DNA from: Cyanobacteria bacterium FACHB-DQ100
GTDB lineage: Bacteria > Cyanobacteriota > Cyanobacteriia > Leptolyngbyales > Leptolyngbyaceae
Length of the DNA: 64,000 bases
Direction of reading: 5' to 3'
Assembly (NCBI GenBank): GCA_014695195.1
Contig: JACJNW010000034.1
Coordinates: forward strand, 62,001-126,000
The notes under the pieces were generated by a model. That model saw nothing but the letters and a program-made list of their open reading frames with translations. It ran no database searches and was not told the DNA's origin. This document shows, in pieces, positions 47,255-50,660 of the stretch (its first letter is position 1; each line of letters opens with the position of its first letter). The position numbers and the translations under genes are program-made.

Positions 47255-47437
47255 GTTCGACACAAATTTTTGGCTACGTTTAGATCTGCGGGTTGCCCCC
47301 TAAGTCCCCCATTCTGGGGGACTTAGAGAACAGCAATGTCTCAGGCTGAGGAGTTCCCTAGCTTTCAAAGTCCCCCACGAGTGGGGGATTTAGGGGGCAC
47401 GACCGAGCAGGAACGAAGCGAAGATATCCGTCGAACT
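47255..47437. repeat. MITE-like palindromic repeat, upstream of the rhodopsin gene
   Basis: The element carries GCCCCCTAAGTCCCCC, a hairpin around CCCCCATTCTGGGGG, and CCCCCACGAGTGGGGG with GATTTAGGGGGC. The outer ends, GTTCGACACAAATTTT at the left and AAGATATCCGTCGAAC at the right, are related inverted repeats. It ends 33 bases before the rhodopsin ATG and shares its right end, inverted, with the left end of the copy at 50192. Confidence 0.7.
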
Positions 47438-47470: not shown

Positions 47471-48181
47471 ATGACACAACAAGCATGGCTGTGGCTCGGT
47501 TGTCTCAGTATGACCGCAGGAGCAATCTTTTTCGGATTTGGAGCAGAACGAGCGAAAAACGATCGCTGGCAAATCGTTTATGTGCTGAACTTCTTTATCT
47601 GCGCGATCGCAGCAGTGCTATATCTCGCAATGACGCAGCGCCAAGGGTTTAATGTGATCTTCGATCGTCCCACTTTTTGGGTGCGCTATATCACCTGGAC
47701 ATTCTCGACTCCGTTGACGCTCGTGTTACTGAGCTATTTGGGCAAAACGAAACCGATTATTCTCGCCAGCATGATCGGGGCGGATGTGTTGATGATTGCG
47801 ACGGGGTTTGTGGCGGCGATTTCGCCGAAGCCGATTACAAATCTTTGGTATATCGTCAGTTGTGGTTTTTATTTGGGACTGGCGTATTTATTGTTGAAGC
47901 ATTATCGTAATCAAGCGATCGACACTTATCCACGATCGAAGTCTGTGTTTAACCGCTTGCTTACCGTACATTTAGTCATTTGGTCGCTGTATCCGGTCGT
48001 GTGGATTCTTGCCAGAACTGGAATTAACGTCATCAACAGCACAACTGAGACGGCGTTTTATACCATTCTCGATGTCGCGGCAAAAGTGGGATTTGGATTT
48101 TTGGCGCTGAGTTCGTTGCAGAAATTAGAGCAGGCGGACGTGAGACAGACGGAGTTCGATCGTGTTGAGATGTCGCGTTAA
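47471..48181 (+). CDS. Microbial rhodopsin, probable light-driven anion (chloride) pump
   Basis: The 236-residue protein is a seven-helix type I rhodopsin. Retinal would attach to K205 in LDVAAKVGFGF, with D201 as counter-ion partner; E193 and the aromatic pocket residues W76, W171, Y174 and W178 are kept. Helix C reads RYITWTFSTPLTLVL, so the three positions that are Asp85, Thr89 and Asp96 in bacteriorhodopsin are T75, S79 and L86. A Thr-Ser pair at the first two is the halorhodopsin pattern of chloride pumps. A proton pump is unlikely because both carboxylates are missing. No carotene oxygenase gene is adjacent. Confidence 0.92.
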   Translation: MTQQAWLWLGCLSMTAGAIFFGFGAERAKNDRWQIVYVLNFFICAIAAVLYLAMTQRQGFNVIFDRPTFWVRYITWTFSTPLTLVLLSYLGKTKPIILASMIGADVLMIATGFVAAISPKPITNLWYIVSCGFYLGLAYLLLKHYRNQAIDTYPRSKSVFNRLLTVHLVIWSLYPVVWILARTGINVINSTTETAFYTILDVAAKVGFGFLALSSLQKLEQADVRQTEFDRVEMSR

Positions 48182-48203: not shown

Positions 48204-48363
48204 ATACCGAATCAATTTATTAATGTGACAGATTCTTCGCCCCCTAAATCCCCCATACTGGGGGACTTTGAGAACCCGAAACAGATTTAGGCTTGAAGTC
48301 CCCCACTCGTGGGGGATTTAGGGGGCTTCCAAGATCTGTCGCACTCAAAAATCAATTGGGTAT
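48204..48363. repeat. MITE-like element of about 160 bp, downstream of the rhodopsin gene
   Basis: Imperfect terminal inverted repeats of about 30 bp (ATACCGAATCAATTTATTAA at the left, TTTTTGAGTGCGACAG in reverse at the right) enclose two hairpins built on CCCCCATACTGGGGG and CCCCCACTCGTGGGGG. It is nearly identical, in opposite orientation, to 57808-57966. No coding potential, as expected for a non-autonomous element. Confidence 0.8.
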
Positions 48364-48472: not shown

Positions 48473-49453
48473 CTACTTTGCCGCCACCGTTGCCAGCTTG
48501 CGCGGCTTGAAGCGTTTGATCAACGGACGAATGCCGAGCGACAGGAATCCCCAAATCGGTGTGAAGCCGAAGGGTACAGGAGTCGCGACCGCAAAGCGAG
48601 AAACGGAGTTATTACCGTGGTTTGCGACTAAGAGATCCCCATTGCTCGCGATCGCCATGCTAGCGGGTTGGTTTAAGCCAGTGAGAGTTTGCAGTAAAGT
48701 ACCACTGCTACTAAACCGCGTTACGGTACCGCCGCTAAAATTCGAGACCAACACATCGCCACTGCTGTCGATGACGATACCCCAAGGACCGCTGAAACCG
48801 GAGCCAAAGGTGCCCAGGGAGGTGCCAGCGCTGTTAAAGCGACTCACGCCGCCGCCAGCATTCGAGACCAACACATCGCCATTGCTGGCAACCGCAATGT
48901 CACGAGGAGCGCTGAAACCGGAGGCAAAGGTGCCCAGGGAGCCACCAGCGCTGTTAAAGCGACTCACGGTACCGCTATTGTTTGAGATGAACACATTACC
49001 ATTGCTGGCAAACGCGATGCCAGCAGGATTAGTGAAACCGGAGCCAAAGGTGCCCAGGGGGTTGCCAATGCTGTTAAAGCGACTCACGGTACTGCTGTTA
49101 TAATTCGCGACCAACACATCACCATTGCTGGCAACCGCAATGTCAAGAGGACCATTGAAACCGGAGCCAAAGGTGCCTAGGGAGGTACCTGTGCTGCTAA
49201 AGCGACTCACGGTACTGTTGCCAAAATTCGCGACCAACACATCACCATTGCTGGCAACTCCGATGCCATAAGAACGGTTGAGACCTGTTGCAAAAGTGGT
49301 GGGTATGGAAGCGTAAGAAAGCGCGATCGCAGATTCTGTTTGCATCGCACCTAACAGGATTGAACCTGCGATCGCTCCGACTCCCAGTTTTGCGATCGTC
49401 GATCGTCTTTTTGGAGATGGTGCGATCGTGGGGGCTGTTGTATTTATAGACAT
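48473..49453 (-). CDS. NHL-type six-bladed beta-propeller secreted protein with C-terminal sorting signal
   Basis: The 326-residue protein has a signal sequence (KLGVGAIAGSILLGAMQTES), six tandem repeats of about 39 residues with the pattern GDVLVANxxxxTVSRFNSxG, and a C-terminal anchor GFTPIWGFLSLGIRPLI followed by Lys/Arg. That tail resembles the PEP-CTERM-type signals (PFE-CTERM variant) cut by exosortase in cyanobacteria. The propeller probably binds carbohydrate or protein at the cell surface. The DNA repeats are highly similar, so the blade number may vary between strains. Confidence 0.8.
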   Translation of the reverse strand: MSINTTAPTIAPSPKRRSTIAKLGVGAIAGSILLGAMQTESAIALSYASIPTTFATGLNRSYGIGVASNGDVLVANFGNSTVSRFSSTGTSLGTFGSGFNGPLDIAVASNGDVLVANYNSSTVSRFNSIGNPLGTFGSGFTNPAGIAFASNGNVFISNNSGTVSRFNSAGGSLGTFASGFSAPRDIAVASNGDVLVSNAGGGVSRFNSAGTSLGTFGSGFSGPWGIVIDSSGDVLVSNFSGGTVTRFSSSGTLLQTLTGLNQPASMAIASNGDLLVANHGNNSVSRFAVATPVPFGFTPIWGFLSLGIRPLIKRFKPRKLATVAAK

Positions 49454-49689: not shown

Positions 49690-50181
49690 ATGACAACCAA
49701 TCGGATCAGTGCCACCTTAAGCGCCGAAGACCGCAAGCAGATCATGAGCGCGATCGACACGATTAAACAAGCGATGCCCTTTCTGGTGCATTTGTCGAAA
49801 GAAGAACGCAAGAGCCTACCGAAAACAGGCGATCGGGGTCGTGGCTTTATGCTCAATTGCTTGGATGCCGCACAGCAACATACGGACTGTTTACCGCGAT
49901 CGTTCAACGTTGAGGAAATGCAGAAAGATATCCGCTTGGTCGAGGATCTCTATCCCGTGTTGATGGCATTGACTGAACTGCATAGCTTGGTCGATGACAC
50001 CTATCTTGCTGCCCACAGTGAAGCGTATGTTGCAGCGCTGAAAGTCTATGATTCGGTCAAATCGCATGACGATCAGCCTGGCATGAAGATTGTTGTGAAT
50101 CAACTAAAGCAGCAGTTTGCGCGTCGCAATAAGAAAGAGGCGGCTGAGACTAGCGCAGAATTGGAGGCGACACCCGCTTAA
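49690..50181 (+). CDS. Hypothetical helical cytoplasmic protein
   Basis: A 163-residue protein beginning MTTNRISATLSAEDRKQIMS with no signal peptide or membrane segment. It is almost entirely helical (TIKQAMPFLVHLSKEERKSL, VEDLYPVLMALTELHSLVDD) and may form a four-helix bundle. No active-site motif was seen. A terminator-like hairpin at 50357 follows, after a repeat element. Function unknown. Confidence 0.75.
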   Translation: MTTNRISATLSAEDRKQIMSAIDTIKQAMPFLVHLSKEERKSLPKTGDRGRGFMLNCLDAAQQHTDCLPRSFNVEEMQKDIRLVEDLYPVLMALTELHSLVDDTYLAAHSEAYVAALKVYDSVKSHDDQPGMKIVVNQLKQQFARRNKKEAAETSAELEATPA

Positions 50182-50191
50182 TCTAACGTTA

Positions 50192-50352
50192 GTTCGACGG
50201 ATTTTTTCGCTTCGTTGATGCTCAGTCGTGCCCCCTAAATCCCCCATTCTGGGGGACTTCAAGCCTAAATCTGTTTCGGATTCTCAAAGTCCCCCAGAAT
50301 GGGGGATTTAGGGGGCGAAAGATCTGTAGCATTAACAGACTGATTTGGTATG
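50192..50352. repeat. MITE-like element, chimeric copy
   Basis: The left end (GTTCGACGGATTTTTTCGCT) matches the inverted right end of the copy at 47255, while the right end (GATCTGTAGCATTAAC and TTTGGTATGAG) matches the termini of the copies at 48204 and 57808. Two hairpins with CCCCCATTCTGGGGG and CCCCCAGAATGGGGG lie between. The copy appears to combine two subfamilies. Confidence 0.75.
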
Positions 50353-50356
50353 AGAG

Positions 50357-50390
50357 CGTTCCTATCTTCGCGGTAGGAGCGTTTCTTTTT
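50357..50390 (+). terminator. Rho-independent terminator
   Basis: CGTTCCTA pairs with TAGGAGCG (one G-T wobble) around a nine-base loop and is followed by TTTCTTTTT. It probably ends the transcript of the 49690 gene. Confidence 0.75.
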
Positions 50391-50421
50391 TGAACAGGAC
50401 ACTTGCGATCGTTTACAGCGA

Positions 50422-50629
50422 CCTTGCTCTAAAAAATCAAAACCTTGCTCTAAAAAACCGAAACCTTGCTGTGAAAAATCAAAACCTTGCTCTAAAAAAT
50501 CAAAACCTTGCTGTGAAAAATCAAAACCTTGCTCTAAAAAATCAAAACCTTGCTCTAAAAGACCGAAACGTGAGTCTAAAAAATCAAAACCTTGCTCTAA
50601 AAAACCGAAACCTCGCTCTATGGCTCAAA
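50422..50629 (+). repeat. 21-bp tandem repeat, nine full copies plus a partial one
   Basis: The unit CCTTGCTCTAAAAAATCAAA plus A begins at 50422 and recurs every 21 bases to about 50610, with the last copy fused to a fragment of the palindromic repeat. In one plus-strand frame it encodes a heptad LALKNQN repeated with conservative changes (L to V, Q to R, N to D). A TTG-started frame at 50390-50653 would contain it, but the only possible ribosome site is inside the terminator stem. More likely non-coding. Confidence 0.85.
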
Positions 50630-50660
50630 GTCCCCCACGAGTGGGGGATTTAGGGGGCAA
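50630..50660. repeat. Half copy of the palindromic repeat
   Basis: AAAGTCCCCCACGAGTGGGG followed by GATTTAGGGGGC is one arm of the MITE-like family, directly after the 21-bp tandem repeat. The other arm is missing. Confidence 0.75.

Follow-up and report, generated by a model that had tools for sequence, protein, structure and literature searches.

The window, a 64,000-nucleotide stretch of the FACHB-DQ100 genome, carries on its forward strand a rhodopsin gene (Table 1) whose product gave a single Pfam match, to Bac_rhodopsin (PF01036; 1.3e-47, 162.6 bits against a cut-off of 24.6), the sole PF01036 match in the 5.5-Mb genome. Upstream of the gene are hisIE, as in strain FACHB-63 (L031, L080), and a gene for a CBS/poly(A)-polymerase-head protein. 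Downstream, on the opposite strand, is a gene for an NHL-repeat beta-propeller protein that contains 4.4 copies of a 120-base tandem repeat and whose C-terminus resembles a PEP-CTERM-type sorting signal. A Pfam scan of seven neighbouring proteins left two without a match. In four genomes of the same genus (L012; L015; L013, taken to be the same as L032; L030, taken to be the same as L033) the rhodopsin gene stands tail to tail with a gene that, from its translation, we take to encode an ABC-transporter ATPase, with fewer than 10 bases between the protein matches; the same gene is 2.5 kb from the rhodopsin in the window. Because the closest neighbour is convergent in these four genomes, the arrangement argues that there is no rhodopsin operon.

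On either side of the rhodopsin gene stands a copy of a MITE-like palindromic repeat of about 90 bases, with CCCCCTAAATCCCCC at both ends, which also occurs elsewhere in the window. A mobile cassette was considered and ruled out, as the repeat pattern did not directly flank the rhodopsin in 13 scanned loci bearing a rhodopsin with the same Thr-Ser-Leu (TSL) motif, among which the nearest copy was 1.1 kb downstream (L031). Also located between copies of the repeat is a 21-base tandem repeat of 9.5 copies, which produces an open reading frame of repeated 'LALKNQN' that gave no Pfam match.

Table 1. Features of the rhodopsin gene and its surroundings, in window coordinates. MrHR, halorhodopsin of Mastigocladopsis repens; SyHR, halorhodopsin of Synechocystis sp. 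PCC 7509; CyHR, cyanobacterial halorhodopsin.
Feature	Position	Strand	Remark
Rhodopsin gene, CyHR with TSL motif	47471..48181	+	ATG start, 236 aa
R72 codon	47684..47686	+	Equivalent to MrHR/SyHR R71, anion-site arginine; R in 37 of 37 CyHR rows
T75 codon	47693..47695	+	Equivalent to MrHR T74, first motif position; read directly and by alignment
S79 codon	47705..47707	+	Equivalent to MrHR S78, second motif position; read directly and by alignment
T83 codon	47717..47719	+	Equivalent to bacteriorhodopsin Leu93/proteorhodopsin 105, L/Q colour switch
L86 codon	47726..47728	+	Equivalent to MrHR/SyHR D85, third motif position
D105 codon	47783..47785	+	Equivalent to SyHR N104, beside release cavity
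H167 codon	47969..47971	+	Equivalent to SyHR H167/MrHR H166, proposed anion-release histidine (role: passages of PMC9617919 and PMC11995866)
T183 codon	48017..48019	+	Equivalent to SyHR T183 and MrHR E182; sulfate determinant (role: passages of PMC9525653)
A204 and K205 codons	48080..48085	+	A204, A/TS switch (Ser in MrHR and SyHR); K205, retinal Schiff-base lysine
MITE-like repeat	47296-47396		
MITE-like repeat	48240-48324		
MITE-like repeat	50231-50314		
MITE-like repeat	57915		
MITE-like repeat	28016		
NHL-repeat protein gene	48473-49453	-	
120-base tandem repeat	48723-49258		4.4 copies
21-base tandem repeat	50421-50620		9.5 copies
ORF of repeated 'LALKNQN'	50390-50653		No Pfam match

The initial annotation had read a T75/S79/L86 motif in this protein and predicted an anion pump. 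The motif is real: read directly from the translation, the three residues align with T74, S78 and D85 of MrHR, and K205 aligns with MrHR K204. The comparisons drawn in the annotation were also correct, since the haloarchaeal halorhodopsins are TSA (rows L075 and L078) and the M. repens pump is TSD (6xl3). Like the FACHB-DQ100 protein, the haloarchaeal halorhodopsins combine Thr-Ser with a non-acidic third residue, but this residue is Ala rather than Leu and they form a separate, distant branch.

The best-scoring relatives of solved structure were MrHR, a chloride pump (6xl3, 286.7 bits), and SyHR, which pumps chloride and sulfate (7zou, 280.5 bits), followed by 6lm0 at 156.1 bits. For tree building we retained distinct relatives of at least 200 bits in the first collection; a 66-row maximum-likelihood tree left out the gene's own copies (L001, L039), fragments and odd frames (L022, L027, L028, L029, L067) and identical rows, and a larger CyHR tree (47 rows, 37 of them CyHRs) excluded rows identical to or contained in others, those below 200 bits other than named outgroups, and the 164-aa fragment L067. 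In the 66-row tree the protein grouped with MrHR and SyHR in a clade of 25 rows (support 100/99), with the proton-pumping cyanorhodopsins (CyR) adjoining this clade at a fork of 83/93; DTA/DTS, bacteriorhodopsin-like, haloarchaeal TSA, DTE and NDQ rows fell elsewhere. The 47-row tree recovered the clade of the protein, MrHR and SyHR at 100/100, and the CyHR clade was still supported at 100/99 after removal of two long rows (L066 and L104) and of the trait columns (11, 83, 86, 105 and 204). The third-position Leu is also found in a part of the 66-row tree away from anion pumps, in DTL rows from the haloarchaeon Halorutilus salinus (L038, L077).

Since it lies inside the clade of MrHR and SyHR, with CyR and the other types placed elsewhere, the product of 47471-48181 is, by its phylogenetic position, a CyHR. 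Thr and Ser occupy the first two positions of its motif, and the retinal lysine and the release histidine H167 are present; the third-position Asp, common in CyHRs but not defining for them, given the published TSV, TSL and TSI variants, is absent. The haloarchaeal type is excluded by the motif (TSL, not TSA) and by a branch apart from L075 and L078 in the 66-row tree. The CyR proton-pump type is excluded by the missing Asp acceptor and acid donor (T75, L86) and by the separate clade of the CyR rows 6lm0 and 6lm1 in both trees. The xenorhodopsin/Anabaena sensory rhodopsin type is excluded by a position outside a ten-row DTA/DTS clade (100/100) in the 66-row tree, a clade that from its motifs is presumably of this type. 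The tree check suggested by the annotation put the protein among the crystallised pumps MrHR and SyHR and outside any sensory clade. Residues R72, H167, E193, D201 and K205 are invariant in all 37 CyHR rows, and the retention of R72, T75, S79, H167, E193, D201 and K205, together with this kinship, argues well for the predicted anion pump.

The annotation's further suggestion, that Leu at the third position was undescribed, did not hold, as TSL is already listed among CyHR motifs in passages of two papers: PMC5877348 gives TSD, TSV and TSL, and PMC9617919 gives TSV, TSL and TSI. Novelty of the motif itself is therefore ruled out. The 37 distinct CyHR rows, which include the FACHB-DQ100 protein, MrHR and SyHR, comprised 14 TSD, 12 TSL, 4 TSI, 2 TSV, 2 SSI, 2 TST and 1 TTV, so that the third-position Asp is missing in 23. 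The 12 TSL rows formed one clade (100/97 in the 66-row tree; 99/97 in the 47-row tree, also without the trait columns), and 11 of them came from the same family as FACHB-DQ100, seven from its genus, the exception being L060 from another family (G442, in a genome sample drawn from a larger group). TSL and TST rows were sisters at 97/91 in the 47-row tree with trait columns included; the grouping was lost without those columns and the two long rows, so the putative sister relation is weakened. On the tree without trait columns the third-position acid required at least three changes, which argues that losing it is not peculiar to TSL. Expression of a TSL protein was not found in open-licence PMC papers.

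Seven of the eight same-genus genomes examined (FACHB-DQ100 included) carried a TSL rhodopsin. Five same-genus orthologues were 87-97% identical to the FACHB-DQ100 protein and the copy in G022 was 65-68% identical; in one scan the nearest named relatives, by protein identity, were FACHB-63 (97%), Phormidium tanganyikae FI6-MK23 (90%) and Pseudanabaenaceae cyanobacterium LEGE 13415 (87%). Several genomes of the same genus or family (G020, G021, G022 and G030) had four PF01036 matches each, compared to one in FACHB-DQ100, with motif types that include TSL, DTS, DTA, DTE, DTD and NDQ. The dN/dS values against the five genus orthologues were 0.059, 0.056, 0.047, 0.067 and 0.068: the TSL rhodopsin is under strong purifying selection. 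Its presence in seven of eight genomes and the low dN/dS of its orthologues indicate that it is not there by chance.

The expectation that the protein is functional is probably correct, in view of the purifying selection and the pump core invariant in 37 of 37 rows. We also searched the FACHB-DQ100 genome for a source of retinal and found two RPE65-family oxygenases, one a close match to the Synechocystis apocarotenoid-15,15'-oxygenase 2biw (640.6 bits) and the other weaker (223 bits). The 2biw-like oxygenase makes retinal production in this strain plausible. A search for Blh gave no match in the genome and none in the controls.

We compared the 12 TSL rows with 10 TSD rows, which represent nine distinct proteins as SyHR was counted twice (7zou and L042). 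At eleven positions the two sets had no residue in common and a single residue occupied at least nine TSL rows; eight of these positions (11, 83, 86, 101, 105, 136, 137 and 204) were invariant in TSL. Three of the separating positions, 83, 204 and 105, may bear on function. Position 83, which aligns with bacteriorhodopsin Leu93, is Thr in 12 of 12 TSL rows, Gln in both TST rows and Leu in all remaining CyHR rows (23), and in the 66-row set, which holds no TST rows, Thr was confined to the 12 TSL rows. The equivalent site in bacteriorhodopsin (Leu93) and proteorhodopsin (105) is described as the L/Q colour switch in passages of PMC7979833 and PMC6491443. At position 204, the residue preceding the Schiff-base lysine, 16 CyHR rows (TSL, TST, L066 and L093) have Ala and 21 have Ser; at this A/TS switch a change from Ala to Ser or Thr brings a 9-20 nm blue shift (PMC7979833, in part). 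A description of Thr or Gln at the Leu93 position in CyHRs was not found in open-licence PMC papers, and the colour-switch residues of the TSL clade would be a modest new observation. They also qualify the annotation's statement that the retinal pocket and the Schiff-base lysine are intact: K205 is present, but T83 and A204 are unlike the residues of all 10 TSD rows (nine distinct proteins).

All 14 TSL and TST rows have Asp at position 105, where the remaining 23 have Asn. In SyHR the corresponding N104, with T137 and H167, coordinates water molecules in a cavity close to the release histidine (passages of PMC9617919), and T137 is replaced by Leu in TSL rows. In the network around SyHR D85, S212 is replaced by Ala in nine of the 12 TSL rows and N39 (N40 in the FACHB-DQ100 protein) is kept. 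We considered D105 as a general compensation for the missing acid at 86 and ruled it out, because nine acid-less TSI, TSV, SSI and TTV rows keep Asn at 105.

The FACHB-DQ100 protein thus shares a clade, Thr and Ser of the motif and the pump-core Arg, His, Asp, Glu and Lys with MrHR (6xl3, 6k6i; 56% identity), and differs from it at L86, T183, T83, D105 and A204 (MrHR D85, E182, L82, N104 and S203). SyHR, of the same clade and 57% identical, has T183 in common and differs at D85, L82, N104, T137, S204 and S212 (L86, T83, D105, L137, A204 and A212 in the FACHB-DQ100 protein). From these likenesses we infer that the product is most likely a light-driven pump of seven helices that binds retinal and moves anions inward, and that it would transport Cl- and perhaps SO4 2-. 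R72, T75 and S79 would hold an anion close to the protonated Schiff base of K205; light would isomerise the retinal, the Schiff base would carry the anion toward the cytoplasmic side, and the anion would exit by way of H167, in line with the proposal for SyHR (PMC9617919 and PMC11995866, each in part). Such a pump would do without a carboxylate on the cytoplasmic side at position 86. The natural TTV protein of Myxosarcina (557 nm), likened to the FACHB-DQ100 protein by motif only, also lacks the third-position acid, with Val in place of Leu, and pumps Cl- in E. coli, which suggests that this acid is dispensable (passages of PMC7979833). In the same assay the TSV protein of Cyanothece PCC 7425 (566 nm), again likened by motif only and with Val for Leu at an acid-less third position, showed no substantial transport, so that CyHR membership is no guarantee of pumping (PMC7979833, in part). 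T83 and D105 are changes close to the retinal and the release path, and might count against the pump reading.

Sulfate may be a main substrate, as in SyHR; this special case of the anion pump does not exclude the general reading, and we regard it as possible though not favoured. Sulfate transport is suggested by T183, which matches the sulfate-pumping SyHR and not MrHR E182, and by the presence of R72 and E193, the proposed sulfate binders of SyHR (passages of PMC11995866). In MrHR the E182T change increased relative sulfate pumping some 11-fold (0.008 to 0.092), but alone it left sulfate at just 0.092 of the Cl- activity (PMC9525653, in part). T183 is a weak pointer, because a non-acidic residue at 183 is the rule in CyHRs (34 of 37 rows), and positions 64 and 119 are Phe and Pro in the FACHB-DQ100 protein as against Ala63 and Ala118 in SyHR.

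An unlikely alternative is a light sensor or too-slow pump, a protein that would bind retinal and an anion yet serve chiefly in signalling or run slowly through its photocycle. The Cyanothece result is in keeping with it, as is Thr at the Leu93 position, where the L93A change in bacteriorhodopsin stabilises the O intermediate (PMC3760879, in part), and the neighbouring ORF at 49690-50181, which has no Pfam match, could encode a partner protein. The trees, however, place the protein among pumps, no known transducer family was found among the seven neighbouring proteins scanned with Pfam, and the convergent transporter gene speaks against an operon. A proton pump, outward or inward, is highly improbable: the fold is common to proton pumps, the adjoining CyR clade pumps protons and the single T74D change turned MrHR into one (PMC9617919, in part), but the FACHB-DQ100 protein has Thr at the proton-acceptor position, no acid at 86 and a place inside the anion-pump clade.

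For the inward anion pump, the residues at the switches bear on colour and kinetics. SyHR and MrHR absorb maximally at 536 and 537 nm (passages of PMC9617919), and a table of proteorhodopsin position-105 mutants, from which Thr is absent, gives 493 nm for Gln, 516 nm for Leu and 523 nm for Val (PMC8347797, in part). By analogy, A204 should cause a red shift and the Gln of the TST rows should cause a blue shift; the TST CyHRs L090 and L092, with Gln at the L/Q switch, are candidate blue-shifted anion pumps. The absorption maximum and photocycle speed of TSL proteins are expected to differ, probably, from those of MrHR and SyHR, because the D85 carboxylate is absent, Asp is at 105, and Thr83 and Ala204 occupy retinal-contact switches. 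More tentatively, the TSL lineage, perhaps with TST, might be a branch of anion pumps retuned in colour and kinetics, with a polar residue at the L/Q switch (Thr, or Gln in TST), Ala at the A/TS switch, Asp at the release cavity and pumping without the cytoplasmic carboxylate. If true, nature would be using the L/Q switch in anion pumps, and the lineage would provide a ready-made test of the role of MrHR D85.

According to passages of PMC9617919 (2022), only two CyHRs, MrHR and SyHR, had been experimentally characterised, both TSD, and what the Asp does in anion transport was called unclear; PMC7979833 (2021), in part, reports the absorption of several more CyHRs and the ion transport of some, including TSV and TTV. 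Judged from its residues and relatives, the FACHB-DQ100 rhodopsin genuinely belongs to a known family of anion pumps, in a sub-lineage whose motif is already in print, and if it is simply another CyHR it would be an ordinary family member. The TSL clade offers natural variants, under purifying selection, with which to ask whether the third-position Asp matters and whether anion pumps, too, make use of the L/Q and A/TS colour switches. Anion pumps of a different colour, or ones that carry sulfate, would be of interest to optogenetics.
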